The notes under the pieces are model-generated. The model had not been told where the DNA came from, ran no database searches, and saw nothing but the letters and a program-made list of their open reading frames with translations. Positions 1-18,710 of a stretch of 64,000 nucleotides of DNA are shown in pieces; the first letter of the stretch is position 1, and every line of letters starts with the position of its first letter. This DNA comes from Solwaraspora sp. WMMA2056 (lineage in GTDB: Bacteria > Actinomycetota > Actinomycetes > Mycobacteriales > Micromonosporaceae), in assembly GCF_030345095.1 (NCBI RefSeq), contig NZ_CP128360.1:682001-746000 (forward strand), written 5' to 3'. The position numbers and the translations under genes were made by a program.

Positions 1-186
1 CTGCTCCAGGTCCGGCGTCGAATACAGAAACGCCGCTGCTACGTCCGGACGGAAGTTCCACCTCTGCGTCGGGCGATCCCAGATCACGGCCTGCACCGGT
101 CCGCGTACCCGAGCTAGCGCGAGCACGTTCGCCGCCGTCCCGCCCACCTTCCCGGGTCCGTACATCAGGTAATACGTGAACTGCAC
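1..186 (-). CDS. Partial third tandem paralog of the small post-toxin family
   Basis: The GTG at 186 has a good ribosome site (AAGGGG, 6 bases upstream). The reading frame runs off the left edge after 62 codons. The protein repeats the core of the two genes to its right: a short beta-like start (VQFTYYL), then ANVLALA, then the block QAVIWDRP-x-x-RW-x-FRPDVA, then a leucine/tyrosine stretch. I do not recognise the family. Conservation of this block at protein level across three copies shows that this frame is the coding one here, although the toxin frame is also open. Its place behind a polymorphic toxin suggests an immunity or accessory protein; that is inference. The C-terminus is outside the window. 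Confidence 0.6.
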   Translation of the reverse strand, partial: MQFTYYLMYGPGKVGGTAANVLALARVRGPVQAVIWDRPTQRWNFRPDVAAAFLYSTPDLEQ

Positions 187-3100
187 GGTCAACCCCTTCG
201 GCACTTTCCGAGCTCGGAAGCTTCTCACCAACCTCCTGCCCCGTCAGGTCCGGCGGGCCGCCTCGCAGATCCGAGTCAACTCCGCTTCGCTCGGCAACGG
301 CACCGTCGTGAAGTGATGCGTCACCGACTCCGCCGTCGCCCGATCGGTCCGGTTGAACGTGTGACGCTCCTGATTCGCGTACAGAATTGCCACCGCGACG
401 TCTGGGCGGAAGTTCCATCGGTCCGCCCGACGGTCCCAGATCACCGCCTGAGTCGGACCAGGACAATTCGCCAGTGCTATGACGTTCACCGGGATGTCCG
501 TCGGATCGATCTGCCGGGACAGCACGTAGTAGTGAAACTCCATCAGAGGCAGCCTCCCCGCCGTCGTCCCGACCCGAGGTCAGGCCTGGCTGGCCTCCTG
601 GCAGATCCGGGTCAACTCCGGCTCGCTCGGCAACGGGACCGCCGTGAAGTGACGGGTCACCGACTCCGCCGTCGACCGGTCCACTGCCCGTACGCTGTGG
701 CGCTCCGGGTCGGCGTACAGGATCGACGCCGCCACGTCCGGTCGGAAGCCCCACCTCGACGTCGGACGGTCCCAGATCACCGCCTGGGTCGGCCCGGTGC
801 CGGCCGCCACCGCTATCACGTTGACCGGCGGCTGGGTCTGGTCGTCCGTCCGATACAGCAGGTGGTAGCGGAAGGTCAGGGTCGGCATCGGTGCTTCCTA
901 TCGCGTCGGGATCGAATCCGGGCAGGTCGGACGGGTCCAATCCTCGCGCAGCCAACTCCTGCCGGAAGCTGCGACTCGGGTCGGCGGCCAGCCAGTCGGC
1001 GTAGTCCTGCCGCAGGCCGGCCTGGTCCTGTTTGCCGATCCACTTGGCGAAGCTGGTGTCCTTCGGTGGGCCGTACCGCTCGGTCAGCACCGGCATGCCA
1101 CCGGGCATCCGGTCGGCGATGTCGTGCGCCTTGTTGACCGCGAGGATGTCGAGGAGGGCGTGCATCCGGTCGGCCGGGGTCGCCGCCGGGTCGCGCATCA
1201 CCTCGTACGGGGCGTGTGTCTGTTTGCCGATCGCCCAGCTCGTGGCGGTCGGGAACTGCACCTCGTAGGTGCGGCCGGTGGGCGAGACGAGGGTGCAGTT
1301 CAGCCCGAAGAACCGGTTCCCGGGGTGCCAGAAGCTCTTGACGTCGGTCACCTGGTGGCCGCTCGCGGTCAGCGCGTCGAGCACTCCCGCGACCGCCGGC
1401 CCGTACGCGTCGGTCTCCGGTGCCCGTACGGAGAACCGCACCACGTCGTTGACCTCGGCCAGCGCCTCCGGGAGGGTGTAGCCCTTCGGCTCGAAGTCGG
1501 TGCTGAACTTGCGGGCCAGCGACTCGGCGCCCTTCACCCGGTACTCGCTGCCCAGCGGGGTGAGCGCGTCGGTGCCGGCCAGGCCGAGGTCGGCGTTGAG
1601 CCGGTCGCCGATGGTCTGCAGCTCGGCCAGGATCGCGTCGGCGTCGACCTGGGCGGCGGCCAGTTCACCACGCAGGGTGTCCCGGTCAGGCTCGGTCAAC
1701 GCATCCAGGTACGCAGAGTCGCTGACCGTCCCGGTCGTCGACGCGTTCGTTGACGCGTTCGTGCTGGTCTGCGGGCCGTCGGCGGGCACCGGGTTGCCGT
1801 CGGCGTCGAGGGTGATCGACCAGACCCCGTCGACCTCGCTGCCGTAGATCGGTGCGGTGTCGGAGACGGTCCGGCTCTGGGCGTCGATCCAGATGATCTG
1901 CCCGTCGTGGTTGACGGCGTTCCAGGTGTGCGCGCCGCCGCCGGCCGCCGCGGTCCAGCTGGTGATGATCAGGGCGGCGGAGCCGGGGCCGGCGCGGCGC
2001 AGCTGGTCGGCGACCGCTTCCAACCCGGCCGGCCCGCGCCCGGCCGGTGCGAAGGGCGCACCCAGCCACTGTTCCTGCCGCCGGGTGCTGTCCGGCTCGG
2101 CGGTCACCGACGCGCCGGTGGCGGCCGCGACCTGCGGGTCGCCGTACCAGGTGGCGAGGACGGAGAGTCCGACGTCGGCGCAGTTCGTGCTGCGGCCGGG
2201 GTTGGCCGGACCGCCGTCGTTGACCAGCTCCGGCCAGCGGCCGTCGCGCGGGTCGGGGTGCCGGGCCGGTCGGCCGTCCGACCCGACCGGTACGGCGTCG
2301 GCCAGCGCCTGCTGGTCGGCGGGGTCCGGCGGCACCAGCGGAAGCCCGTCGCCGGTCGGTCTGGTCGGCGGCAGCGTCCGCCCATCACCCAGCGCACCGG
2401 AGTCGGGCGGTACGGCCGGGCCGGCCAGCCGTGCGGTGTCGACCACCGGGGTGATCCCGAGGTCGTCGAGGAGCGGCCCGCACGACCGGCACGGTGGTCG
2501 GTAGTCGCCGCGTTCGTACACCACGTCGATGTCCTGGGCGCGGCGGAACTGGTGGGTGACGATCCGCGCCCCGGCGAGCTCCGATCGGGCGTACGTGTCG
2601 AAGTCGCCGGGTCGGCCGGCGGCGTTCCACTGCTGCTCCAGCTGGTGCACCACGTCGGAGACCAGGGCGACCTCGGCGCATTTGCCGTGCCCGCTGCCGG
2701 GCCGGTCGACCTGCCGGGCGACCTGGTCGAGCGCGGTCTGGACCAGTCGGTGCGGGGTCGGTTCGGCGGCCGGGTCGGTGCTCTGGTCAGCGGTCATGCT
2801 GGTGTGCGTGGTGATCTGGCCGTTGCGGGTCATCAGTGCCCCGACCACGCCCGGCCGTTTCGCCATCGAGATCTGCTCGCCGGGGGTGTTCTGCTGCTGC
2901 CGTCGGGTCACCGCGTCCTGGACGGAGTCGACCAGCGCCCGGGATGCCTCGATGAGTGCCTGATCGGCGTCCGCGCTGGTCGGGTCGCCGTCGAACTGGA
3001 CCGGCGCCAGCTGCCAACTGTGCGTACCGCTGCCGGTGGGGCCGGTCGACCGTTGCAGCGTCGCCGGGTCGACGGTCGGCCCGGGGGCGGGCCCGCCGGG

Positions 3101-5221
3101 TGCCGGCTGCGTCGTCCGGTCCGGGCCGCTGGCGGTTGCGGCCGGCGGCGGTACGGGTGCCGGCGGGCCGATCGGCGGCAGTACGGGCGGCGTCTGGCTG
3201 ACCGGGGTGGCCGCGGTCGGCGCAGTGCTCACGGCCGGTGCCGGTACGGTGGCCGGCGCGCTGACCGGCGGGCCGAAGGTGACCGAGCCGGCGGAGGGCC
3301 CGGTCGCCGGCACCGGTGGCCGGGCCGGTGTCGACGCGTTCGCACCGGTCGACGCGTTCGCACCGGCAGACGTCGTTGGACTGGTCGACGTGGACTGGCC
3401 GGCGGACGTGGCAGACGCGGTCGGGTTCGCCGACGTGGTCGGGCTGGTCGTCGAGGTACCCGGGGTGGTGGCGGCGGTCGGTGCGGCGGTGGACGATGCT
3501 GGGGTGGCGGCCGCCGGGGTCGATGCGGCTGGGGTCGCCGCCGCCGGGGTGGCGCTGGTGGACGGCGTACCCGCTGCAGGCGTACCACCGCTCGGTGCCG
3601 CCGCCCCTGGCGCGGACGCCGAGGACGCCCCTGGTGCGGACGCCGCCTCCGGGGTGACCAGGGCAGCCGCAGACCCGGACACCCCTGCCCCGACCTCGGC
3701 CGGCTGCGCTGGTCCGGCGGTGACCGTCGGGGCTTGGGTGTCGGGCCGACCGGGCTGCTCGACCTCGGTGGCGGCCAGGTTCGAGGCAACGACGTCCGGG
3801 GTGGTCACGTCCACGGTCATGGGTGCCAACGAGATGGAGCCGGCACCGGTCTCCGGCGCAGTCGCCGGTGGCACGATGTCCGATGGATCGGCACTCGGGG
3901 GCGCGGCACTCGTCGACGCGGGCGGGGCTGCACCGTCGGCGACGCCGATACCTGCCGTACCGCCGGTTCCACCGGTCGCGCCGCTGCTCCCGCCGCCAGC
4001 ACTGCCGTCCACTGTGCCGCTGCCGCCGAGCGTACCCAGGTCGATCCCGCCGGCGCCGACGGTCGTCAGCGGCATCCCGGTCGCCAGGTCGATGGCGCCG
4101 GTGGGTGGCGCGACACCACCCAACCGGTTGGCGAAACCGGCGGCGGCGGCACCGGCCGACGACGCCGCCATGGTGGCACCGCCCCGGCCGGCACCGCTGG
4201 TGAAGCCGCCGAGGACGCCCTGCCAGCCAGGGCTGGTCCACTGCTGGTTGACGGCGAGGTTCGCGGCGACGCTGGCCGCCGGTGAGACGACCGCGTTCTG
4301 CAGGCCGGCGGCGACCGAACGGCCACCCCAGCGGAGGGTGCCGGCGCTCCACCGGGCGGCCCGGGAGGTGCCGAAGTCCAGCGCCGGTGGCCGGAACGAC
4401 ACCGGTACGCGCGGGGCGATGGTGTTGCGCAGCAGCCGGTTGCCGCCGAAGCCGAGCGCCCCGCCGAAGGCTCCGCCGACGGCGGCGGTCAGCGTCCGGT
4501 TGCCTTCCCACTCGCGGCGGTTGCCCCGGGCCATCTGGTACGCCTGGGCACCGACGTCGATGATCAGTTCCTCGCCGATCTCCTCGGCGAGTTCGATGCC
4601 CAGTTGGGTGCCGAGCCGGCGGGCGCCGATCCGGCTCACCCCGGTGGCAGCCAGCCGTGCCGAGCTCTGCAACGCGGCCCGCATCCCCGCCTGGGTCAGC
4701 ATCTGCCGGCCGAGCTGGGCGAGCAGCCGCCGGAAGGCGACGGTGACGGCCTGCCGGCCGGCGGCGAGGATGCCGGGGATGGCACCGGCGGAGACGCCAC
4801 CGAGCCAGGCCATCAGCAGCGCCACGAAGACCGCGATCACCGTGATGGCGACGGCGATCAGGATGGTCAGCTTGGCGTACTCGATCTCGTTGGCGGCGTT
4901 GTCGCAGCCGCTGGAGAAGGCGGCGGCGGCCTTCTGCAGCACCGGCAGCCCGGTGTTGGGTCCGACGCCGACCTGCTGCCAGAAGGTGGCGAACTCGGCG
5001 CCGGCGTCGCCGCCCCAGCCTTCGATGACCCGCAGCGCCGCCGGGTCGGCCTCGGCGAGGGCCTCGCCGATGGCCTCGGCGAGCTGCCGCCAGGCGTCGG
5101 CGAGCTCGCGCATCTCGACCTCGTCGCCGGTGGGCCAGGCCTCACCGGCGCTCACCCAGCAGATCGCGTCCCAGACCCAGGCGTACTCGCCGAGCCCCTC
5201 CCTCGGGTTCATGATCGACAC
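1..5221 (-). CDS. Type VII polymorphic toxin with deaminase, papain-fold and RelA/SpoT-like domains
   Basis: The best start is GTG 5221 (GGAAGG 8 bases upstream); ATG 5212 is possible. Residues 1-110 are helical with a WXG-like GWGG motif. A membrane segment lies near 117-145, and residues ~410-720 are low-complexity Ala/Pro/Ser/Thr. Near 730-925 is a YwqJ-type deaminase (HGKCAE, H845/C848/E850; PCRSC, C911/C914). A papain-fold Tox-PL domain follows (C1014, H1098, D1113). At ~1228-1345 is a RelA/SpoT-like synthetase (RVK at 1228, D1259, E1320 in EVQF, YE at 1339-1340). Recognisable protein ends near position 895, but the frame stays open to the left edge across three small genes, so a frameshift near the end is likely. 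WXG and YbaB-like genes precede it. It is probably secreted by the neighbouring ESX system and attacks nucleic acid, protein and nucleotide targets; targets are inferred from family. Confidence 0.78.
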   Translation of the reverse strand, partial: MSIMNPREGLGEYAWVWDAICWVSAGEAWPTGDEVEMRELADAWRQLAEAIGEALAEADPAALRVIEGWGGDAGAEFATFWQQVGVGPNTGLPVLQKAAAAFSSGCDNAANEIEYAKLTILIAVAITVIAVFVALLMAWLGGVSAGAIPGILAAGRQAVTVAFRRLLAQLGRQMLTQAGMRAALQSSARLAATGVSRIGARRLGTQLGIELAEEIGEELIIDVGAQAYQMARGNRREWEGNRTLTAAVGGAFGGALGFGGNRLLRNTIAPRVPVSFRPPALDFGTSRAARWSAGTLRWGGRSVAAGLQNAVVSPAASVAANLAVNQQWTSPGWQGVLGGFTSGAGRGGATMAASSAGAAAAGFANRLGGVAPPTGAIDLATGMPLTTVGAGGIDLGTLGGSGTVDGSAGGGSSGATGGTGGTAGIGVADGAAPPASTSAAPPSADPSDIVPPATAPETGAGSISLAPMTVDVTTPDVVASNLAATEVEQPGRPDTQAPTVTAGPAQPAEVGAGVSGSAAALVTPEAASAPGASSASAPGAAAPSGGTPAAGTPSTSATPAAATPAASTPAAATPASSTAAPTAATTPGTSTTSPTTSANPTASATSAGQSTSTSPTTSAGANASTGANASTPARPPVPATGPSAGSVTFGPPVSAPATVPAPAVSTAPTAATPVSQTPPVLPPIGPPAPVPPPAATASGPDRTTQPAPGGPAPGPTVDPATLQRSTGPTGSGTHSWQLAPVQFDGDPTSADADQALIEASRALVDSVQDAVTRRQQQNTPGEQISMAKRPGVVGALMTRNGQITTHTSMTADQSTDPAAEPTPHRLVQTALDQVARQVDRPGSGHGKCAEVALVSDVVHQLEQQWNAAGRPGDFDTYARSELAGARIVTHQFRRAQDIDVVYERGDYRPPCRSCGPLLDDLGITPVVDTARLAGPAVPPDSGALGDGRTLPPTRPTGDGLPLVPPDPADQQALADAVPVGSDGRPARHPDPRDGRWPELVNDGGPANPGRSTNCADVGLSVLATWYGDPQVAAATGASVTAEPDSTRRQEQWLGAPFAPAGRGPAGLEAVADQLRRAGPGSAALIITSWTAAAGGGAHTWNAVNHDGQIIWIDAQSRTVSDTAPIYGSEVDGVWSITLDADGNPVPADGPQTSTNASTNASTTGTVSDSAYLDALTEPDRDTLRGELAAAQVDADAILAELQTIGDRLNADLGLAGTDALTPLGSEYRVKGAESLARKFSTDFEPKGYTLPEALAEVNDVVRFSVRAPETDAYGPAVAGVLDALTASGHQVTDVKSFWHPGNRFFGLNCTLVSPTGRTYEVQFPTATSWAIGKQTHAPYEVMRDPAATPADRMHALLDILAVNKAHDIADRMPGGMPVLTERYGPPKDTSFAKWIGKQDQAGLRQDYADWLAADPSRSFRQELAARGLDPSDLPGFDPDAIGSTDADPDLPLPPAVSDGRPDPAAGQRDSGGGRHRADPGGDLGPSDVEVGLPTGRGGVDPVRRPGAPQRTGSGPVDGGVGDPSLHGGPVAERAGVDPDLPGGQPGLTSGRDDGGEAASDGVSLLRAVPADRSDGHPGERHSTGELSWSDSGGDLGPSGGPMELPPRRRGGNSVRESGASHVQPDRSGDGGVGDASLHDGAVAERSGVDSDLRGGPPDLTGQEVGEKLPSSESAEGVDRAVHVLPDVRTREGGRDGGERARASSGTRTGAGRDLGSPDAEVELPSGRSSGVSVFDAGPGA
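244..543 (-). CDS. Small hypothetical protein, tandem paralog 2 (putative immunity/accessory)
   Basis: This is a 99-aa soluble protein of no family I recognise. The ATG at 543 is preceded by GGGGAGG. It contains VNVIALA, then PTQAVIWDRRADRWNFRPDVA, and a C-terminal block AESVTHHFT-x-VPLPSE-x-ELTRIC, all shared with the 102-aa gene at 580-888. Base composition is a little less GC-rich than the secretion genes. It lies in line with the toxin gene and two sister genes, so co-transcription is likely. Repeated small paralogs directly behind a polymorphic toxin are a known layout for immunity genes, but nothing in the protein itself proves that role. Confidence 0.6.
   Translation of the reverse strand: MEFHYYVLSRQIDPTDIPVNVIALANCPGPTQAVIWDRRADRWNFRPDVAVAILYANQERHTFNRTDRATAESVTHHFTTVPLPSEAELTRICEAARRT
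580..888 (-). CDS. Small hypothetical protein, tandem paralog 1 (putative immunity/accessory)
   Basis: This is a 102-aa protein starting at ATG 888, with AGGAAG a few bases upstream. It shares VNVIAVA, PTQAVIWDR, RWGFRPDVA, DRSTAESVTRHFTAVPLPSE and ELTRIC with the 99-aa gene downstream, so it is a clear tandem duplicate. It begins exactly where recognisable toxin sequence ends. A TAG lies 12 bases before its ATG in its own frame (900-898), whereas the toxin frame has no stop here. No signal peptide or membrane segment is visible. Function is unknown; immunity to one of the toxin domains is the simplest guess from context. Confidence 0.6.
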   Translation of the reverse strand: MPTLTFRYHLLYRTDDQTQPPVNVIAVAAGTGPTQAVIWDRPTSRWGFRPDVAASILYADPERHSVRAVDRSTAESVTRHFTAVPLPSEPELTRICQEASQA

Positions 5222-5248: not shown

Positions 5249-5587
5249 TCACTTGCCGCCGAAGCTGGTGGACACCGCGTCGTCGTCGTCGACGGTGCCG
5301 TCGACGGAGGAGACGATCCGCACGCCGACGTCGTCGATCGCGGCGATCAGCTCGTCGCCGGCGTCGAGGGTGACCGCTGCCGGGGCCTCGTCGCCGCCGT
5401 CCAGGTAGTGCTCGTTGAAGGCCCGACCGGCTTCGTCGTCGCCCCAGGGCCGGGCGGCGTTGAGGCCACGGATGGTGGCGGTCAGCCGGGTCCACTCCCC
5501 GGAGAGGCGCTCGACGGCACCGCCGAGCACGGCCCCGGCCGGTCGCACCAGGTCCGGGTCGACGAAGGTCTGTTGTGGTTCGGTCAC
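5249..5587 (-). CDS. WXG100-like (ESAT-6-like) protein
   Basis: This is a 112-aa helical protein. Its hairpin carries the variant motif PWGDDEAGRAF (tryptophan at residue 48) instead of strict W-X-G, as is common for WXG proteins placed next to ESX toxins. Such proteins are exported by ESX systems or chaperone the downstream toxin. It starts at GTG 5587 and overlaps the stop of the YbaB-like gene by 4 bases; the toxin gene starts 28 bases after its end. The three genes therefore look like one transcript. The tail is acidic (VDDDDAV). It is likely the secretion partner of the toxin; that pairing is inferred from order. Confidence 0.8.
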   Translation of the reverse strand: MTEPQQTFVDPDLVRPAGAVLGGAVERLSGEWTRLTATIRGLNAARPWGDDEAGRAFNEHYLDGGDEAPAAVTLDAGDELIAAIDDVGVRIVSSVDGTVDDDDAVSTSFGGK

Positions 5588-5976
5588 CTGCGGTCACCTC
5601 CGGGCAGGTCGGCGTCGAGCTGGCGGAAGATGCCGTCCAGGTCGGCGTCCATGTGCGCCTGGAACTGCGCGTCCGGCACGAGCGGCCGGCAGATCCGCTC
5701 CACCTCGGCCATCGCCTGGTCGGCGGCGGTCCGGATGGTGTCGGTGATGGTGGCGGCGAGCTGTGACGCGTTCGGCTGCCGGTAGATGCGCGGATCCAGC
5801 TCCACCTTGGTCACCTGGCCGCGCGGCCCGACGGTCACCGTGACGAGGCCGTCGTCGGAGGTCACCGTCGCCGACACGGTGCGCAACTGCTGCTGTACGT
5901 CGCCGACACCCGCGCGCATTCGGTCGAACTGCGCCATGAGCTCGTCCGCGCGGGCCCGCAGCCCCTGCAGGTCCAT
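5584..5976 (-). CDS. YbaB/EbfC-family protein of the ESX toxin operon
   Basis: This 130-aa protein has the YbaB/EbfC layout: an N-terminal helix with AxxLMAQFDRM, then a beta sheet (VTSDDGLVTVTVGPRGQVTKVELDPR) and a C-terminal helical part. The family was described as nucleoid-associated, but copies next to WXG100 genes and ESX toxins are common in actinobacteria and their role there is not settled. It has a strong ribosome site (GGGGAGG) before ATG 5976 and is the first gene of the operon that runs into the WXG and toxin genes. The promoter must lie in the 158-base gap shared with the divergent mycosin gene. Confidence 0.8.
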   Translation of the reverse strand: MDLQGLRARADELMAQFDRMRAGVGDVQQQLRTVSATVTSDDGLVTVTVGPRGQVTKVELDPRIYRQPNASQLAATITDTIRTAADQAMAEVERICRPLVPDAQFQAHMDADLDGIFRQLDADLPGGDRR

Positions 5977-6134
5977 GGTGTCCTCCCCGTCGCCGCGTCA
6001 CCGGGGCACGACCGTACCGGCCGGGCACGGCTTCGTCCTGACGATACTGAATGTGTGCCAGTCGCACGAGCCCGCTCGGCCCGGCCGGCTCGGTACGATG
6101 CCCGCACCCCACCGGCTCGTCAGGAGGTCGACGG

Positions 6135-7514
6135 ATGCGCTCACCGGCGTCGCCCCGGGCCCGGTTGCGGACCACGACCCGGGCCCGGTTGCGGACCACG
6201 TCCTGGGCCGGGCTGTTGGCTGCGGCCGTCACCGTGGTCGTCACGGCGGCCGTCCCGGGGGCACCGGCCGCCGCCGCGCCCGGCAGCTGCCGTAACCCGG
6301 CGCAGCCCGGTCCGGTGATCCCGCAGCTGTCGTGGCATCAGCGGTGGCTGGCGCCGGAGCGGATCTGGCCGGTCACCGACGGGTCCGGCGTCCGGGTGGC
6401 GGTGATCGACTCCGGGGTGGACGACGACCATCCGCAGCTGGCCGGCCGGGTGGCCGACGGCACCGACCTGCTCGACGTCGAGGACAGCGGCACCGTCGAC
6501 TGTGCCTCGCACGGCACCGCCGTGGCCAGCCTGATCGCGGCCACTCGCCGCGACGGGGTCGGCTTCCACGGGCTGGCACCCGGGGTGACGATCGTGCCGG
6601 TGCGGGTCACCGAGCGGGTGCAGGCCGCCGAGGAGGGCCCTGGTTCGCCCGGTGCCCGGCTCGCCGAGGCGATCGACGTTGCGGTGGCGGCCGGCGCCGA
6701 CGTGATCAACATGTCGTTGACGATGTACCGGGTGGACGAGGCGGTACGTGCGGCGGTGGAGCGGGCCCGCCGGGCCGACGTCGTCCTGGTCGCCGCAGCC
6801 GGCAACAACCATCAGCGCGGCGAGGTGCCCGATCCGACGCCGTACCCGGCGGGCTTCGACGGGGTGATCGGCGTCGGGGCGATCGACGAAACCGGCGTAC
6901 GGCTGGCGGACTCGCAGGTCGGCGGGTACGTCGACCTGGTCGCACCGGGTGGGGCGGTCGTCGCGGCGAGCCGGGTCTCCGGGCACGAGGTGCTCAGCGG
7001 CACCAGCTACGCCACCCCGATGGTGAGCGCGGCGGCGGCGTTGCTGCGCGCCGCCGAGCCGCAGTTGTCGGCGGTGGAGGTGACCCGCCGGTTGCTCGCC
7101 ACCGCCGACCCGGCGGCCGGCGGCCGCGCCGACGGCTACGGCCACGGGGTGGTCAACCCGTACCGGGCGATCACCGAGCAGCTCAGCGCGGCCGAGCCGG
7201 TGGCCGTGCCGGCGTTGCCGGCGGTCACCGAGGATCCGGCGGCGGTGGCCAGGGCGCAGCGGTGGCGGTCACTGGGGCTGGTCGCGGTGGCGGTGGCGGC
7301 CGCTGTGGCGATGATCGCGGCGGGGATCGTCGTGGCGGTCACCGCGCTGCCGTACGGGCGGCGTCGACGCTGGCGGCCGACCCGGTGGGCCGACGCACCG
7401 CCGGGCGGGGCACCCGCCACCAGCGGTGCCGGTGGCGCCGCCCGCGCAGGCGGGGATCCGGGCGCGGACCCGCAGGAGACGTTCTTCGTGGTGCCGGGCA
7501 CCCGGATCCGGTGA
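6135..7514 (+). CDS. mycP: Mycosin (S8 serine protease of the ESX system)
   Basis: This is a 459-aa membrane-anchored subtilisin-like protease of the type VII machine, expected on the outer face of the membrane, where mycosins stabilise the ESX complex and process substrates. The catalytic triad is visible: D92 (VAVIDSGVD), H126 (SHGTAVASL) and S291 (SGTSYATP), with N224 as oxyanion residue (AAGNN). A signal peptide precedes the mature domain and one C-terminal membrane helix is followed by a basic, low-complexity tail. ATG 6135 is chosen because AGGAGG lies 7 bases upstream. It is divergent from the YbaB/WXG/toxin operon and convergent with the Esx pair. Confidence 0.92.
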   Translation: MRSPASPRARLRTTTRARLRTTSWAGLLAAAVTVVVTAAVPGAPAAAAPGSCRNPAQPGPVIPQLSWHQRWLAPERIWPVTDGSGVRVAVIDSGVDDDHPQLAGRVADGTDLLDVEDSGTVDCASHGTAVASLIAATRRDGVGFHGLAPGVTIVPVRVTERVQAAEEGPGSPGARLAEAIDVAVAAGADVINMSLTMYRVDEAVRAAVERARRADVVLVAAAGNNHQRGEVPDPTPYPAGFDGVIGVGAIDETGVRLADSQVGGYVDLVAPGGAVVAASRVSGHEVLSGTSYATPMVSAAAALLRAAEPQLSAVEVTRRLLATADPAAGGRADGYGHGVVNPYRAITEQLSAAEPVAVPALPAVTEDPAAVARAQRWRSLGLVAVAVAAAVAMIAAGIVVAVTALPYGRRRRWRPTRWADAPPGGAPATSGAGGAARAGGDPGADPQETFFVVPGTRIR

Positions 7515-8371: not shown

Positions 8372-9787
8372 TCAGGCCGGCTGCTTCGCTGCGACCGGAT
8401 CCAGGGTCGGCCCGGCCGGTAGCCGCACCACCAGGCTGGTCGGCATCCGCACCGGCGTCGCCTGCGGATAGCCGAGCATCGCGGCCACCGCACGGTCCGC
8501 CAGCGGATACCGGATGCCGAGGTCGGTGACCAGGGTCAGCGTCCCGGCGGGGGCGTCCGGGCTGGGCAGCGCCTCCACCAGCGCACCGTGCCCCGGCGCG
8601 ATCACCACCAGGTCGGCCAGCGGCACCCCGTCGGCGGTCCGCGACGGCGTGACCAGCGACTGCTCCACCGATTCGACCAGCGCGTCGAGCAGCACCTGCG
8701 GCTCGTGGCGGTCCGGGGCGTACCCGGCGCAGACACTCTGCTGGCCGTCGGTGAGCCGGACGATCTCCGGCCGACGTTCCGGCGCGGCGGCGGCGGTCTG
8801 CGCCGCACGCTCGGCCCGGGGCGCGGCGACCACGGCCGCCGCAGCGGCGGTACGCACCACCGGCTGCTCCCCGTCGTACGCCTCCCGGGTCGCGGGATCG
8901 GCCAGCAGCACCTCCGCCTGCAGTTCGGTCAACGGCAGCAGCCGGGCCCGTTCCGCCAGGTAGTACTGCCGGTCGCCGGCCTGGTTCTGCACCGCGTAGA
9001 TCTCGCCGGTGACCGCGTCCGGCAGCGCCGTCGACGACTCCCCCCGGCCGGCCACCGCCCGGCTGCCGATCGGCTCCCCGGCCGGCAACGCGTTCAGCCA
9101 CGCACCACCGACCAGCACGATCGGCTCGGACCGCAGGGTCAGCCCCTCCAGGACGATGTCCGGGTCGACCAGCTCGTGCCGCTGGTCGCGCCAGATCAGG
9201 TGCAACCGGCCGCTGTCGGCGTCGCGGACCAGCAGCGCCCCGGCACCGGCGGACCGGCCGCCGACCGGAGGCCGGCCGACCGTCAGCACCGTCCGGGTCG
9301 TCGCCTCGCCGGCCTGGTCCCGCACCACCTGGGAACACAGCGTCCAGCCGCCGGTCAGCAGCCGGTCCGCCGCAGGCAGGGCGTCCGGGGCGTCCGGGAT
9401 GCCGATCCGCGCCCCGCGCGGCGCCACGTCCAGCGAGTTGCGGGAGACCCGGGTCAGCGGCGCGAAGCGTTCCAACGCCAGCACCGCCGACGTGTAGTTC
9501 ACCACCGGGTGCAGGTGGCCGTCGCGGTACAGGTACCGGGTGCCGGTCTCCTTCTCCTGGATCACCGCGTCGCCGTCCTGCCAGCCGGTCGCTCCACCGG
9601 GGACGACGAAGCCGAAGATGCCGACCGCGCCGAGGCACAGCACGGCGACCATGATCCCACCCAGACCCGCCGCGCCGAGCCGGCCGAACGGTGCCGCGAC
9701 CGGATCCGGATCCCGGGCGACCAGCGCGGACGTCATCCGCTGGACGAAGAACTGGTACGACTGGACCTGGTCGCGCCGCGACGGCAT
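8372..9787 (-). CDS. eccB: Type VII secretion protein EccB
   Basis: This 471-aa core ESX membrane protein begins with the family signature MPSRRDQVQSYQFFVQRM. A single membrane helix follows at about residues 38-62, then a large extracytoplasmic domain with the two conserved cysteines of EccB (LCSQ and VCAG contexts). In ESX complexes EccB forms the periplasmic part and contacts EccC and EccD. Start ATG 9787 has GGGAGG upstream. The gene is divergent from the SUKH-3 gene at 9908 and upstream of the esx pair on the same strand, so it could be co-expressed with it across the 177-base gap. Confidence 0.95.
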   Translation of the reverse strand: MPSRRDQVQSYQFFVQRMTSALVARDPDPVAAPFGRLGAAGLGGIMVAVLCLGAVGIFGFVVPGGATGWQDGDAVIQEKETGTRYLYRDGHLHPVVNYTSAVLALERFAPLTRVSRNSLDVAPRGARIGIPDAPDALPAADRLLTGGWTLCSQVVRDQAGEATTRTVLTVGRPPVGGRSAGAGALLVRDADSGRLHLIWRDQRHELVDPDIVLEGLTLRSEPIVLVGGAWLNALPAGEPIGSRAVAGRGESSTALPDAVTGEIYAVQNQAGDRQYYLAERARLLPLTELQAEVLLADPATREAYDGEQPVVRTAAAAAVVAAPRAERAAQTAAAAPERRPEIVRLTDGQQSVCAGYAPDRHEPQVLLDALVESVEQSLVTPSRTADGVPLADLVVIAPGHGALVEALPSPDAPAGTLTLVTDLGIRYPLADRAVAAMLGYPQATPVRMPTSLVVRLPAGPTLDPVAAKQPA

Positions 9788-9907
9788 CCCTGGCCACCTC
9801 CCGACCGCCGGTGCCGCGTATCCCCACCACGCAGCGTGCTGCCTACCATAGGCTCCGGCTACCACGACGTACCCCGGGGTCCGACCCCCGGCGGCGAAGG
9901 GGCATCG

Positions 9908-10684
9908 ATGATCGGACGCGACGAGGCGCTCGCGCTGGCCCGCGACTGGGCGACGACGCACGGCGCGGACCCGGCGGCCGAGATCGGCCTGTACGAGTTC
10001 GACCAGGGGTACGTGGCCTGGCTGGTCCCGACCGGGGACACCGGCAGCCACGACCGCGCCGAACCGGCGGGGCCGCCCGCGCCGCCGGCGACCAGCGGGT
10101 CGGCGCGCATCGTCGTCGACCGGCAGTCCGGCGTGGTCAGCCAGTGGCCGCCGCTTCCGGTGGCGGTCGTCGCCGCCCGGTACGCCGCCGAACGCTCCGC
10201 CGACCACCGGTTCCCGCCGGACGTACACCACGTGCTGACCACCGCCGGCTGGTTCGCCGGCCGCGACGTCACCGCCATGGTCGACCAGTGGTCGGCCCGG
10301 TGGGCCGGTGAACTCGACGGCCTGGTGATGAGCCCGGCCGCGCGGGCCGCCCTGGTCGAGTTCGGCGGCCTGACGCTGCCGCAGTTCGGCAGCGACGGTA
10401 CGGCCGACGCCGGCTTCCCGACGTTCCTGCACCCGGTGCGCAGCGGACTGGTCACCGAGGAGGCCCGGGTATTCGTCGACGAGTACGACCACCCGGTGTT
10501 CCCGCTCGGCGGCAACTCCGACGGGCCGTCGGAGCTGGTCGTCGACGCCGCCGGCCGGGTGTTCCTGCTGCACTGGGCCGGCTACCAGTTCGTCGCCGGC
10601 AGCGTCGACACGGCGTTGACCCGGCTGATCCGGGGCGGGCCGTTCCCGCCGCTGCGCCCCGACCAGCTGTCGCCGCAGGACTGA
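9908..10684 (+). CDS. SUKH-3 domain immunity-type protein with YrhB/Imm35-like N-terminus
   Basis: This is a 258-aa soluble protein. The first ~80 residues (EALALARDWAT, GYVAWLVP, ARIVVDRQSGVVSQWP) resemble the YrhB/Imm35 type. The rest is SUKH-3-like: FPPDVHHVLTTAGWFAGRDV, LVEFGGLTLP, and a closing VVDAAGRVFLLHWAGYQFVAG. SUKH proteins are a broad immunity superfamily that binds diverse toxins of polymorphic systems. It sits alone on the plus strand between eccB and eccD, so it is embedded in the ESX core rather than beside a toxin. Start ATG 9908 has GAAGGGG upstream. The toxin it would neutralise is not evident; the nearby triple-domain toxin is a candidate. Confidence 0.75.
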   Translation: MIGRDEALALARDWATTHGADPAAEIGLYEFDQGYVAWLVPTGDTGSHDRAEPAGPPAPPATSGSARIVVDRQSGVVSQWPPLPVAVVAARYAAERSADHRFPPDVHHVLTTAGWFAGRDVTAMVDQWSARWAGELDGLVMSPAARAALVEFGGLTLPQFGSDGTADAGFPTFLHPVRSGLVTEEARVFVDEYDHPVFPLGGNSDGPSELVVDAAGRVFLLHWAGYQFVAGSVDTALTRLIRGGPFPPLRPDQLSPQD

Positions 10685-10755: not shown

Positions 10756-12134
10756 TTGATCGCCCGCATGAAGCCGTAGAGGCCGAGCACGGCGCAGGCC
10801 ACCGGCACCACCGCCAGCTGCAGCACCACGTCGAGCCCGTCACCGAGGCGGGCCAACCGGGGTGCCGGCGGCCGCCGGCTGTAGATCATCCCGGCCGCCA
10901 CCACGAGGGCCACCACCAGCAGCACCGCCGGCAGCAGCGCGACCCGTACCCCGGTCGGCACGTCGGCCGCGCCGACCAGCACCAGCAGGGCGACCCCGGC
11001 CAGCCCGCCGACCAGCAGCGGCACCCGGTGCCGGACGGTCGGCACCAGCCGGGCCCGCAGCAGGAAACCCGCAGCCACCACCGCGACCAGCAGCAACGCG
11101 CCGACCGACGCCGCATCGGTGAGCACCGCCAGGGCAGCGGTGGCGGTCGCCGCCGCACCGAACATCAACCCGGTCAGCACCTCGTCGGCGCGCGCCGTCG
11201 CCTGGTAGATCTGCGCCCGGTCCGGCTGCGGATCGTCGCGGACCAGGTCCTCCGGGGTACGCGGCAACGACGGCATCGGCAGCTTTCCCGCCCGTACCGA
11301 GATCAGCGGCATCGCCGGCAGCAGCAACGTGACCAGGCTGACCACGACGGCGGCGGCCTTCGGCGCGTCCAGCGGGCCGACCGCCAGGGCCGCGCCGAGC
11401 ACCCCGCCGACGCCGGTGAAGATGGCCGCGACGAACACCCGGCCGGCGTCGCCGACGGCGAGCATGCCGAGCAGGCCGGTCAACGCCAGCGCCGCCGCAC
11501 CGGCCAGCACGTGCGGCGCCCCCAACGCGGTGATCCGGGCACCGTCGGCCAACGCCACCGCGCCACCGAGGAACGCGTACGGCAGGGCCACCGCCGTCAG
11601 GACCGCGCCGGCCAGCGAGTCGGCCATCGCCCGGGACAGCACCGTGCCGACGGCGACCAGGACGGCGGCCGTACCGAGCAGGGCCAGCCCGACGAGCAGC
11701 CCGACCTCGCCGGCGGTCACCACCGCGACCAGGGCCAGCAGCAACAGGACGGCGGTGACCAGCAGCCCGGTCGCCCGGGTCGCCCCCGGGGTCCACGGCC
11801 GGCCCCGGCGGCGGGCACCGGCCGCGACCGCCTCCATCAGGTCGTCGTAGGCCAGCTCCGGCCAGTCGGTCCGGCGGGGCAGCAGGTGCAGGGTCTCGCC
11901 GTCGCGGACCTGCTGGGCGGCGAGGGTACGGGTCAGGTCGAGAGTGGAGCCGTCGGTACGGCGCAGCGCCCAGCCGCCGTCGGCCGTACCGTCGGAGGGG
12001 TCCTCTTCGGCGTGGCGCAGCACCGCCGGCAGCAGACCGACCAGCGGAAGGTGCTCGGGCAGGGCCAGATCGATCCGTCGGGTCGGTGCCACGACGGCGA
12101 TCCGGGCGAGTCCGGTTCCGGCCTGGGTGACCAC
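10749..12134 (-). CDS. eccD: Type VII secretion integral membrane protein EccD
   Basis: This is the 461-aa EccD subunit that forms the membrane vestibule of the ESX pore. Residues ~10-95 are the cytosolic ubiquitin-like (YukD) domain (RIAVVAPTRRIDLALPEHLPL, LRRTDGSTLDLTRTLAAQQV, GETLHLLPR). About eleven hydrophobic helices follow from residue ~120 to the C-terminus, and a short charged loop (LPRTPEDLVRDDPQPDRAQI) links the two helix bundles as in the family. The gene is divergent from eccC, with a 124-base shared upstream region. Confidence 0.95.
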   Translation of the reverse strand: MVTQAGTGLARIAVVAPTRRIDLALPEHLPLVGLLPAVLRHAEEDPSDGTADGGWALRRTDGSTLDLTRTLAAQQVRDGETLHLLPRRTDWPELAYDDLMEAVAAGARRRGRPWTPGATRATGLLVTAVLLLLALVAVVTAGEVGLLVGLALLGTAAVLVAVGTVLSRAMADSLAGAVLTAVALPYAFLGGAVALADGARITALGAPHVLAGAAALALTGLLGMLAVGDAGRVFVAAIFTGVGGVLGAALAVGPLDAPKAAAVVVSLVTLLLPAMPLISVRAGKLPMPSLPRTPEDLVRDDPQPDRAQIYQATARADEVLTGLMFGAAATATAALAVLTDAASVGALLLVAVVAAGFLLRARLVPTVRHRVPLLVGGLAGVALLVLVGAADVPTGVRVALLPAVLLVVALVVAAGMIYSRRPPAPRLARLGDGLDVVLQLAVVPVACAVLGLYGFMRAING

Positions 12135-12258
12135 TGCTGACTCCTCGTCGATGCCGCGGGCTGTCCTGACTCGAGAAGGCTACCTACCATGTGCCGGTGC
12201 CATCGGTGCCGGTAGTGCGACGGCAGCCGGGTGTGACGACGACGGGGAGGGTCGATCC

Positions 12259-15200
12259 GTGGGTACGGTCGTGATTCGGCGTCCGACGCGCCAGCCGGAG
12301 CCGGAGTACCCGTCCGGGGAGGTGCTGCTCGACGCGCCACCGGAGCTGCCGGCCCCGACCGGCCGGTCCTGGGGGCAGCTGATGATGCTGCTGCCGATGC
12401 TGGCCGGCTCGGTGGCGATGGCCCTGATGTACGCCGGCCGGGGCGGTTCGACGCTGAGCTACGTCGCCGGTGGCCTGTTCGGACTCTCCGCGCTCGGCAT
12501 GCTCGCCTCCCAACTGACCGGCCAGGCCAGCGGGCCGAGCAAACAGGAGATGGCGCAGCGCCGCCGCGAGTACATGGCGCACCTGTCGCGGCAGCGCCGC
12601 CGGGTGCTGCGTACCGTCCGCCAGCAGCGGGAGGCCGCGTTCTACCGGCACCCCGACCCGCAGGCGCTGTGGTCGGTGCCGGTCGGCCCCCGGCTGTGGG
12701 AGCGCCGTCGTGGTGACGCCGACTTCGCCACCGTACGGGTGGGTCTGGGGCCGCAGGAGCTGGCGACGCCGCTGGTCCCGCCGCCGCCGACGGCGCTGGA
12801 GAAGCTGGAGCCGATGTGCGCGCTGGCGCTGCGCCGCTTCCTCACCACCTACGCCTCGGTGCCGGACCTGCCGGTCGACATGGCGTTGCGCGGCTTCGCC
12901 CGGGTGCACCTGCGCGGCGACGCCGACGCCGCCCGCAGCCTGGTACGGGCGGTGATCTGCCAGGCCGCCGCGTTCCACGCCCCGGACGACGTGCTGGTGG
13001 CGGTCTGCGCGGCACCGGCCCGGCGGGACCAGTGGGAGTGGACCAAGTGGCTGCCGCACGCGCTGCACCCGACCCGTACCGACGCGATGGGGGCGTTGCG
13101 GCTGGTGTCACCGACGGTGACCGGGCTGGAGGCGATGCTCGACGACGTGCTGGCCAACCGGCCCCGGTTCAACGTCTCCGGTGGCGGTACGGCCGCACCC
13201 GGCCCGCACCTGCTGGTCGTCATCGACGGCGGCGACCCGGCCGGGTCCGACCACCTGATGACCGAGGGCGGGGTCGAAGGGGTGACGATCCTCGACCTGT
13301 CCGAGCCGCCGCCGCGCGTACTGGACCGGGCGCGGCTGCTGCTGGAGCTGGCCGCCGACGGGGCGATGACCAGCGTGACCCTGGACGGGCGGGTCGCGAT
13401 CGGCACCGCCGACAGCTGCGCCGTCGCCGAGGCCGAGGCGTTGGCGATGCAACTGGCGCCGCTGCGGCTGTCCGCCGCGTCCCGGGGCGAACAGCCGCTG
13501 CACCAGGAGCAGGACCTGGCCGACCTGCTCGACCTGGGAGACCCGTACGAGTTCGACGTGGACCGGGCCTGGACGCCCCGGCCCAACCGGGACCGGCTGC
13601 GGGTGCCGCTCGGGCTGACCCCCGACGGTACGCCGGTCGAGCTGGACCTGAAGGAGTCCGCGCAGGACGGGATGGGCCCGCACGGCCTGCTGATCGGCGC
13701 GACCGGTTCCGGCAAGTCGGAGCTGCTGCGGACGCTGGTGCTGGCCCTGGCCGCCACGCACTCGTCGGAGACGTTGAACTTCGTACTGATCGACTTCAAG
13801 GGTGGTGCGACGTTCACCCGGCTGGACAAACTGCCACACACCAGCGCGGTGATCACGAACCTCTCCGACGAGCTGCCGCTGGTCGACCGGATGACCGACG
13901 CCATCAACGGCGAACTGGTCCGCCGCCAGGAGCTGCTCCGCTCGGCCGGCAACTACGCCTCGCAGCGCGACTACGAGAAGGCGCGGGCGGCCGGCGCGCC
14001 ACTGGACCCGATGCCGGCGCTGCTGATCATCTGTGACGAGTTCTCCGAGCTGCTGACCGCCAAACCCGACTTCATCGACATGTTCGTCCAGATCGGACGC
14101 GTCGGCCGGTCGTTGAGCGTGCACCTGCTGCTCGCCTCACAGCGGCTCGAGGAGGGCCGGCTACGCGGCCTGGACACCCACCTGTCGTACCGGATCGGCC
14201 TGCGGACCTTCTCCGCCATGGAGAGCCGGGTCGTCCTCGGCGCCACCGACGCCTACGAACTGCCCCGCTCCCCCGGCCACGGCTACCTGCGCTTCGGCAC
14301 CGAACCGCTGGTCCGGTTCCGGGCCGCGTACGTCTCCGGCACGTACCGCAGCAAGACCGCCGAAGCGGTCGCTGCCGGCGACGGCGACGACCGCGTCCAG
14401 GAATACACCACCCAGTACGTCGCACCCCGGCTGCCCACCGCCGCCCGTACCCCCGAACCCGAACCGACCGACGCCACCGGCGAAAGCCTGCTCGACATCC
14501 TGGTCGGCCGGCTCGCCGGCCGGGGCAAACCGGCCCACCAGGTGTGGCTGCCGCCGCTCGGCGACCCGATGACCCTCGACCAGCTGCTCTCCCCGCTGGC
14601 CGCCGACCCGGAACGCGGCCTCACCGCCGCCAGCCCCGCCCTGCAGGGCGAACTACGGGCCGCCGTCGGCGTCATCGACAAACCGTTCGAACAGCGCCGC
14701 GACGTCCTCTGGCTGGAACTGGCCGGATCCGCCGGACACGCCGTCATCGTCGGCGGCCCACAGAGCGGCAAGAGCACCCTGCTGCGGACCGTCGTGTCCG
14801 CCCTCGCCCTCACCCACACCCCGCGCGAAGTGCAGATCTACTGCCTCGACCTGGGCAGCGGGGCACTCACCGCACTGCGCGACCTGCCGCACGTCGGCGG
14901 CGTCGCCACCCGGCTCGACGCCGGCCAGGTCCGCCGGACCATCGCCGAACTGCGGCTGCTGATGGCCCAGCGGGAACGCCGCTTCGCCGAACGCCGCATC
15001 GACTCGATGGCCACCTACCGGCGGGAACGCCGCCACGGCGGACACACCGACGACCCGTTCGGAGACGTGTTCCTGGTCATCGACGGGTGGGCCGCCGTAC
15101 GGGGCGAGTTCGAGGACCTGGAACCGGCGATCACCGACATCGCCAACCGGGGACTGTCGTTCGGCGTACACCTGGTGATCACCGCGAGCCGGTGGATGGA

Positions 15201-16212
15201 CCTGCGGCCCGCCGTACGGGACGTCTTCGGCACCCGACTGGAGCTGCGCCTCGCCGACGCCAGCGACTCCCACCTGGACCGACGGGCCGCGATGAACGTG
15301 CCGGACAAGGCACCCGGCCGGGGCATCACCCCCGACGGCATGCAGTTCCTCGCCGCACTGCCCCGCGCCGACGGCGACGCCGACAGCGAGACCCTCACCG
15401 ACGGCGCCCGCCGCTTCGTCACCGACATCGCCGCCGCCTGGCAGGGGCCGGGCGCGCCACCGGTACGGCTGCTGCCGGCCGAGGTGCCGTACGACAGCGT
15501 GCCCGACACCGGCCGGCCCGGCGTGCCGATCGCCATCGCCGAGGCCGACCTGCAGCCGGTGCACCTCGACCTCGGCACCGACCCGCACTTCATCGTCTTC
15601 GGCGACGGCGAGTCCGGCAAGAGCAGCTTCCTGCGGGCCTTCGCCCGGGGCGTCACCGACCGCAACGACCTGACCCAGGCCCGGCTCATCGTCGTCGACT
15701 ACCGGCGCAGCCTGCTCGGCGACATCAGCAAGGAACACCAGATCGGGTACGGCACCTCGGCCCAGGTCACCGAGGGCATGATGACCGAAGTGGTCAACGT
15801 GATGCGCGACCGGCTACCCCCGGCGGACGTCACCCCCGAACAGCTAAGGGCCCGCAGCTGGTGGCGCGGCCCCGATCTGTACCTGCTGGTCGACGACTAC
15901 GACCTGGTCGCCGGCGGCGGCGGCAACCCGCTGCTGCCGCTGCTGGAGTTCCTGCCCCAGGCCCGCGACATCGGGCTGCACCTGGTGATCGCCCGACGCA
16001 GCGGCGGCGCGAGCCGCGCCCTGTACGAGCCGATCCTGATGCGGCTGCGCGAACTCGGCAGCCCGGGGCTGGTCATGTCCGGCAACCGCGACGAAGGGGT
16101 GCTGCTCGGCAACGTCCGGCCGGGCCCGCTGCCCCCGGGCCGGGGCTGGCTGGTCACCAGACGGGAAGGCACTCGTCTCGTCCAGTTGCTACACCTACCG
16201 TCCACAACGTGA
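12259..16212 (+). CDS. eccC: Type VII secretion ATPase EccC (fused EccCa/EccCb)
   Basis: This 1317-aa FtsK/SpoIIIE-type motor of the ESX system sits at the inner face of the membrane. GTG 12259 is chosen because GGAGG lies 8 bases upstream. Two membrane helices near residues 42-85 are followed by three ATPase modules with P-loops GATGSGKS (480-487), GGPQSGKS (832-839) and GDGESGKS (1115-1122), and acidic Walker B strands such as ALLIICDEF and LYLLVDDYDL. In mycobacteria EccC is often split into two genes; here it is one chain. It drives export of WXG100 heterodimers and attached effectors. The next genes in the same direction encode candidate substrates. Confidence 0.95.
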   Translation: MGTVVIRRPTRQPEPEYPSGEVLLDAPPELPAPTGRSWGQLMMLLPMLAGSVAMALMYAGRGGSTLSYVAGGLFGLSALGMLASQLTGQASGPSKQEMAQRRREYMAHLSRQRRRVLRTVRQQREAAFYRHPDPQALWSVPVGPRLWERRRGDADFATVRVGLGPQELATPLVPPPPTALEKLEPMCALALRRFLTTYASVPDLPVDMALRGFARVHLRGDADAARSLVRAVICQAAAFHAPDDVLVAVCAAPARRDQWEWTKWLPHALHPTRTDAMGALRLVSPTVTGLEAMLDDVLANRPRFNVSGGGTAAPGPHLLVVIDGGDPAGSDHLMTEGGVEGVTILDLSEPPPRVLDRARLLLELAADGAMTSVTLDGRVAIGTADSCAVAEAEALAMQLAPLRLSAASRGEQPLHQEQDLADLLDLGDPYEFDVDRAWTPRPNRDRLRVPLGLTPDGTPVELDLKESAQDGMGPHGLLIGATGSGKSELLRTLVLALAATHSSETLNFVLIDFKGGATFTRLDKLPHTSAVITNLSDELPLVDRMTDAINGELVRRQELLRSAGNYASQRDYEKARAAGAPLDPMPALLIICDEFSELLTAKPDFIDMFVQIGRVGRSLSVHLLLASQRLEEGRLRGLDTHLSYRIGLRTFSAMESRVVLGATDAYELPRSPGHGYLRFGTEPLVRFRAAYVSGTYRSKTAEAVAAGDGDDRVQEYTTQYVAPRLPTAARTPEPEPTDATGESLLDILVGRLAGRGKPAHQVWLPPLGDPMTLDQLLSPLAADPERGLTAASPALQGELRAAVGVIDKPFEQRRDVLWLELAGSAGHAVIVGGPQSGKSTLLRTVVSALALTHTPREVQIYCLDLGSGALTALRDLPHVGGVATRLDAGQVRRTIAELRLLMAQRERRFAERRIDSMATYRRERRHGGHTDDPFGDVFLVIDGWAAVRGEFEDLEPAITDIANRGLSFGVHLVITASRWMDLRPAVRDVFGTRLELRLADASDSHLDRRAAMNVPDKAPGRGITPDGMQFLAALPRADGDADSETLTDGARRFVTDIAAAWQGPGAPPVRLLPAEVPYDSVPDTGRPGVPIAIAEADLQPVHLDLGTDPHFIVFGDGESGKSSFLRAFARGVTDRNDLTQARLIVVDYRRSLLGDISKEHQIGYGTSAQVTEGMMTEVVNVMRDRLPPADVTPEQLRARSWWRGPDLYLLVDDYDLVAGGGGNPLLPLLEFLPQARDIGLHLVIARRSGGASRALYEPILMRLRELGSPGLVMSGNRDEGVLLGNVRPGPLPPGRGWLVTRREGTRLVQLLHLPSTT

Positions 16213-18604: not shown

Positions 18605-18710
18605 CGACAACCGACAGCCGGGCATCGTCGGGCAAAGGCCCTGGAGCGGTATCATCCGGTCACGGTGTCGGTCGCTCCGCGACCGCTCGACGGAGAGGAG
18701 TGCACCGCCC

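Follow-up and report, generated by a model that had tools for sequence, protein, structure and literature searches.

A giant open frame beside an ESX locus

In the window analysed here, a stretch of 64,000 nucleotides from Solwaraspora sp. WMMA2056, ORF analysis of the 64-kb sequence places on the minus strand a giant gene that starts at the GTG codon at 5221 and is still open at the window edge (Table 1). Followed further, the frame closes at L009:705 (G000:C1:672705) after a total of 4,838 codons, with a GC content of 72.2%. A preliminary description of this DNA had proposed a complete toxin of three enzyme domains ending at about position 890. The domains themselves stand on motifs and matches, but the end point does not: there is no frame-0 stop at 890, and a nested gene in frame +1 begins at position 888, where the effector does not end. 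The three domains thus make up only the first third of a predicted toxin gene of about 4,800 residues. That a three-enzyme toxin nonetheless ends there has next to no probability; it would fit the fact that a small ORF starts directly after the third domain, but none of the seven genomes of the genus that were searched has a frame-0 stop at this place, and in all seven the match to the third domain lies in a stop-free frame of 4,770-5,443 aa.

The adjacent ESX system, also part of the preliminary description, is represented by ESX-type genes at most 15 kb away, namely two subtilases and an FtsK/SpoIIIE ATPase. The giant gene has the traits of a type VII (ESX) polymorphic toxin, namely a WXG100-type N-terminus, nearby ESX genes and a constant N-terminus followed by variable toxin domains.

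Table 1. Position, strand and supporting match of the features at the giant gene and its ESX neighbourhood.
Feature	Position in window	Strand	Remarks
Giant open frame, first 1,740 codons	2..5221	-	open at the window edge; closes at G000:C1:672705
WXG100_2 N-terminal domain, aa 14-148, ESX-type export region	4778..5182	-	Pfam PF25547, 4.7e-23
YwqJ-type deaminase domain, aa 782-921, HGKCAE and PCRSC	2459..2878	-	Pfam PF14431, 1.1e-26
Tox-PL1/Gln_amidase papain-fold domain (PL1), aa 1012-1117	1871..2188	-	Pfam PF15644, 7.1e-26
REL, RSH alarmone-synthetase domain and C-terminal extension, aa 1165-1440	902..1729	-	D1259, E1320
immA copy 1, 102 aa	580..888	-	frame +1 relative to the giant frame; preceded by SD-like AGGAAG
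immA copy 2, 99 aa	244..543	-	frame +1
immA copy 3, 114-aa ORF	1..231 (cut by window start)	-	frame +1; full at L009:9887-10231
YbaB-like gene, just upstream of the giant gene	5584..5976	-	Pfam PF02575, 1.7e-16
Subtilase, candidate mycosin of the neighbouring ESX locus	6051..7514	+	Pfam PF00082, 7.2e-44
ORF with SUKH-3 immunity domain, residues 542-683	8588..10684	+	PF14433, 8.8e-29
FtsK/SpoIIIE ATPase, three FtsK stretches, EccC-like	11944..16212	+	Pfam PF01580, 1.8e-83
Second subtilase, candidate mycosin	17943..20006	+	Pfam PF00082, 4e-42

Catalytic modules of the giant frame

The WXG100_2, YwqJ-deaminase and Gln_amidase matches all exceed the curated Pfam cut-offs, and the key residues lie where they had been placed: HGKCAE at 845 and PCRSC at 910 in the deaminase, C1014/H1098/D1113 in the papain-fold Tox-PL domain (PL1), and D1259, E1320 and YE at 1339-1340 in the RelA/SpoT-type segment (REL). 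Profile searches confirmed the deaminase and Tox-PL in Pfam; REL, which had no relevant Pfam match, was recognised instead through the exported alarmone synthetase of PDB entry 8vx3 (phmmer 3.2e-9; profile 8.3e-22) and the C-terminal part of NCBIfam XopAD (1.7e-15, at 55.5 bits for a long model whose cut-off is 2000). REL falls within the SYNTH fold of RSH proteins and exported alarmone synthetases. Alignment with the 8vx3 position points to D1259 as the catalytic Asp, and we take E1320 to be the catalytic Glu; both motifs are kept in 24/24 REL copies among the relatives described below. YwqJ and PL1 are both present in all 21 giants whose modules were mapped. The CxE and PCxxC zinc motifs of the deaminase occur in 21/21 loci, spread over two separate match pieces in L070 and L071, and the 21 PL1 copies fit the strict patterns NCAD in 20 cases, AHTW in 18 and W-D-Q in 21, those off pattern (L029, L032 and L063) retaining Cys and His in NCGD, SHTW, VHTW or GHTW.

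Across the whole frame, Pfam finds four Gln_amidase stretches and, at 4438-4672, a sub-threshold calpain match (PF00648, E 0.001, 18.7 bits, under the cut-off of 23.8). The motifs of this calpain-like tail are well kept, with Cys in 28/28 copies, His in 27/28 and Asn in 25/28, the exceptions for Asn being L070 and L071, which have Asp, and one L065 copy that is cut. A further warhead-like module (BIGa/BIGb/FAD) spans codons 2720-3440 of the giant frame (L009) and carries the glycine-rich motifs GGGWAAT and GAGAS, to which it owes the labels 'two-Rossmann' and 'FAD'. The region has no Pfam match, the best hit of its BIGb and FAD sequence in the PDB has an E-value of about 0.09, and an AlphaFold model of the same part of the L085 homologue is poor (pLDDT 49). 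The HAF motif is absent from 9 of 27 copies of the Tox-PL module PL4, and stretches of several giants carry no identified module. Catalytic motifs are nevertheless mostly intact (REL 24/24, PL2 14/14, PL1 21/21), which rules out a pseudogene array. The layout is very probably WXG100_2 - YwqJ - PL1 - [REL] - [Tox-PL] - [Tox-PL] - [two-Rossmann module] - [Tox-PL] - conserved tail - calpain-like domain.

Small genes nested in frame +1 and antisense

Base composition by codon position indicates that the toxin modules are coded in frame 0 and patches between them in frame +1; segmentation by codon usage likewise gives an alternation of frame 0, frame 1, antisense and unclear stretches. The patches of frame +1 coding hold small ORFs, many with Shine-Dalgarno (SD)-like sites according to a first survey on a rougher gene set that included some spurious ORFs. 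We call the small ORF after REL immA and that after Tox-PL immB. After the two-Rossmann module, the giant frame also contains an antisense gene for a leucine-rich repeat (LRR) protein of 252 residues (Pfam LRR_6). Pfam gives no convincing family for immA or immB, and PADLOC gave no match for the effector or for two immA genes. Of the 118 immunity genes internal to giant frames (defined below), 85 have an SD core close to the start, compared with 238 of 2,360 upstream windows of equal size and phase. In this genome, the giant-frame translation over immA and immB, hereafter the linkers, has 20-25% Gly and 23-26% hydrophobic residues, against 39-42% hydrophobic residues in three toxin modules.

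An ORF of at least 241 residues (L009:2-724) lies where an immunity gene ordinarily would, overlapping the stop of the giant gene, and has DUF6406 (4.7e-21) and SMI1_KNR4/SUKH-1 (9.3e-7) domains; its product is perhaps the antidote of the calpain-like tail.

Conservation of the layout and pairing of modules

A search with the N-terminus gave a match in 151 of 250 genomes of the family. The 22 N-terminal matches listed at 57% identity or above all lie in frames of 2,761-6,941 aa; G039 has two at 50-52% identity, in frames of 967 and 3,970, and below about 50% the frames range from 236 to 13,832 aa, many of them 1,100-2,800. The longest belongs to a second, distant N-terminal paralogue in genome G041 (L078-L080, G041:C1:1050001-1098000), whose 13,832-codon open frame has an antisense-coding patch at codons 10730-10960 and possibly follows the same design at larger scale. 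Another N-terminal paralogue, on G040:C1 (L081-L082), lies in an open frame of 7,837 codons.

Scanning GTDB genomes for related loci with the REL of the window alone returned no loci, and with the alignment A1 returned 25; eight GTDB-derived loci are the same DNA as other loci in the set. The same layout occurs in Micromonospora, Salinispora, Actinoplanes and Symbioplanes, and a reduced form in Catellatospora and Nocardia. A class-wide search with a REL profile gave matches in 13 of 394 genomes, including 11 distant loci (L112-L122).

In the module map of 21 loci (L069, which failed the N-terminal pattern, is absent from these counts and included in the stop counts below), the N-terminus, YwqJ and PL1 are constant, cassettes that vary in number and order follow, and the modules TAILa-C2 close the frame. 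A six-frame module search found all detected toxin modules in the giant frame in 20/21 loci, all immA and immB matches in frame +1 and the antisense LRR gene codon-aligned. The remaining locus, L068, has one frame change inside the module BIG, after which the later modules, END excepted, are in the new frame, and its LRR gene is codon-aligned to that frame. The N-terminus and the calpain-like domain share a common frame in 19/21 loci (L068 is shifted and L077 extends past the stretch examined, as do L065 and L066). REL is paired with immA in 24/24 cases, PL2 or PL4 with immB in 40/41 and FAD with LRR in 21/21; directly after PL1 there is a toxin module in 18 of the 21 loci and an immunity gene in three. 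In the 12 more distant loci L098-L109, an immA match, sought with one immA query, directly follows REL in only 17 of 28 cases. We infer that immA, immB and LRR encode cognate immunity proteins of the neighbouring warheads.

Stop avoidance and selection on both frames

Were the giant frame untranslated through the immunity genes, stop codons would be expected in it there. We examined this in a corrected set of 39 unique loci (47 less 8 duplicates) with 127 immunity genes of at least 70 codons, of which 126 are at phase +1 and one is at phase 0. Whether a gene was internal was decided on the frame of the module that followed it within 4 kb, and not on openness. The 118 internal genes, from 34 unique loci, have no giant-frame stop in 11,136 codons, where 89.0 would be expected from their own synonymous codon usage; in their third frame these genes have 605 stops. 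A non-redundant set of 29 genes below 70% identity has 0 stops against 23.2 expected (P 2e-11, a value that overstates independence because the loci are related, a problem that the 29-gene set lessens and does not remove). In 20 ordinary genes of the window, the same relative frame has 33 stops in 7,657 codon pairs with 39 expected, and there is therefore no general avoidance of stops in this organism. The 24 antisense LRR matches contain no TTA, CTA or TCA in 5,271 codons, against an expectation of 17.7 that is based on window codon usage and ignores relatedness.

A natural control is provided by single-warhead REL effectors with immA at +1, where the corresponding frame has 5, 8 and 3 stops (L126, L130 and L136). 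Two further terminal immA genes have 4 and 3 (L104 and L107, the latter with a weak immA match of E 0.0011), which brings the clean terminal controls to five. The first three controls are among 20 single-effector loci, of which another three have immA at phase 0 and 14 have no immunity match. In those with immA at phase 0 (L133, L139 and L140), no REL was detected and immA lies downstream of the effector stop, which suggests orphan immunity genes behind other warheads.

Among the nine unique immunity genes not classed as internal, eight are also without giant-frame stops. At L063, L072, L106 and L108 the giant frame extends well beyond such genes. At L098 (Phytohabitans flavus) and L101 (P. 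suffuscus) the last immA is stop-free, yet the frame closes about 87 and 11 codons later; at both loci the REL/immA and PL4/immB modules are spread over different frames and several long open frames overlap, so that they might be read as giants broken by frame changes.

The two frames differ in how they diverge. With duplicate loci still in the set, the immA frame has a pN of 0.090 and a pS of 0.199 (pN/pS 0.45, 47 pairs) and the immB frame a pN of 0.071 and a pS of 0.255 (pN/pS 0.28, 41 pairs), while the giant frame has a pN of 0.136 and a pS of 0.075 through immA and 0.136 and 0.070 through immB. Since pN is below pS in the nested frames, the immA and immB proteins are kept; since pN exceeds pS in the giant frame, it is without residue constraint across the immunity genes. 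Both frames are under selection, the nested one by pN/pS and the giant one by stop avoidance with its controls, and as far as these counts can tell selection keeps the giant frame open, and little else, across the immunity genes.

These counts bear on what else the long frame could be. An ordinary polymorphic-toxin locus, with one effector (residues 1-1444) followed by silent cassettes and a long frame that is a by-product of 72% GC, would agree with the textbook arrangement, in which toxins come in cassettes with immunity genes and have leftover immunity genes strung out behind them, as given in the available text of PMC3482391, and with the giant frame's GC content in a window rich in spurious ORFs that are hundreds of codons long. 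We regard it as very unlikely: it does not account for the absence of stops where 89 are expected, each single-warhead relative whose immA is likewise at +1 has 3-8 stops, and the N- and C-terminal modules are in one frame in 19/21 loci. The stop counts in immunity genes and in ordinary window genes rule out a GC-driven accident as such.

Even less likely, in our judgement, is a switching reservoir, in which the open frame would not be fully translated and deletion or recombination between cassettes would always yield an in-frame effector. Cassettes that differ in number and order among relatives between constant ends are what it would predict, but homologous recombination should re-establish the frame locally without any frame shared by the whole locus, and a reservoir would give no reason to purge stops inside the immunity genes. 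Programmed frameshifts at the toxin-immunity junctions, freeing each toxin as a separate product, are less probable again. A TGA in frame +2 does overlap the immunity start in three Tox-PL modules, and a TAG in frame +1 lies beside the SD after REL, but GTG-ACN and ATG-ACN starts create such a TGA by themselves, and frameshifting would leave the avoidance of stops across a whole immunity gene unexplained.

A model for a polytoxin with nested antidotes

Taken together, the single open frame, the fixed phases, the avoidance of stops, the conserved immunity-like proteins, the pairing of warhead with antidote and the RSH fold, all read from sequence, point with high probability to one giant polytoxin gene of the ESX (type VII) kind, with the immunity genes for its variable warheads nested in the same DNA. 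According to this model, a full-length chain bearing about eight catalytic modules would be made and exported via its WXG100 N-terminus. Ribosomes translating the giant frame would cross each immunity gene in the wrong frame and produce a linker rich in Gly, Asp, Arg and Ala, presumably disordered, while on the same message other ribosomes would initiate internally at Shine-Dalgarno sites to synthesise the immunity proteins; the LRR antidote would be made from the antisense strand. Selection would purge giant-frame stops and leave the linker residues free. In the target cell, REL would make alarmones; the T7SS-linked enzyme AaEAS makes (p)ppGpp, and expression of its C-terminal part lowers E. 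coli viability, according to the accessible portion of PMC12691689. The constant YwqJ-PL1 pair and the calpain-like tail may serve processing, with PL1 or the calpain-like domain cleaving the chain, and some papain-like versions are described as likely releasing peptidases in the available text of Zhang et al. (PMC3482391). About 4,800 residues would be very large for an ESX substrate, which counts against the giant-chain reading.

If the model is correct, toxin and antidote are locked into one piece of DNA instead of lying side by side, and whenever a warhead is copied, moved or recombined, its antidote would have to go with it. New warheads could accrete in frame because the stop-purged immunity genes act as linkers, and this would offer a simple route from single-warhead toxins to polytoxins. 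The locus would also show, in a concrete instance, overlapping bacterial genes under strong and recurrent selection. At such loci, automatic annotation averse to overlaps may miss the immunity genes or truncate the toxin, and the stop-avoidance test provides a sequence-only means of finding others.

Comparison with known systems

Tas1/Apk1 (6ox6) and toxSAS such as CapRel (7ztb) are further from REL than 8vx3 is, and belong to type VI or toxin-antitoxin contexts, unlike the ESX giant; we know of no nested immunity in either. T7SS-linked alarmone synthetases are known already, 85 WXG/LXG proteins being given in the accessible portion of PMC12691689. There, AaEAS has a C-terminal synthetase with a small ORF downstream, and SaEAS (8vx3) is also an exported alarmone synthetase, whereas REL is here accompanied by many other warheads, in a frame that continues and has the immunity-like gene of REL nested inside it.

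Several toxin domains in one very long chain are likewise found in the polytoxin SACTE_5178 (13,652 aa), and toxin-immunity cassettes in polymorphic toxins generally (PMC3482391, available text). In the same text, immunity genes are described as lying adjacent to toxins rather than nested in a translated toxin frame. Two proteins from one stretch of DNA are known from overlapping genes such as pop, antisense to ompA, and ano in E. coli O157. Those among the matches listed are single E. coli genes; here, immunity-like families are embedded repeatedly and in fixed phases in the presumed target toxin. Among the matches listed from the open-access literature, in the text these made available, immunity genes nested in a translated toxin frame were not described. 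Multi-domain polytoxins, T7SS alarmone synthetases and toxin-immunity cassettes are thus known already, and the new element is the nested layout: antidote genes in the +1 and antisense phases within a toxin coding sequence that would be translated straight through them are likely to represent a new architecture.
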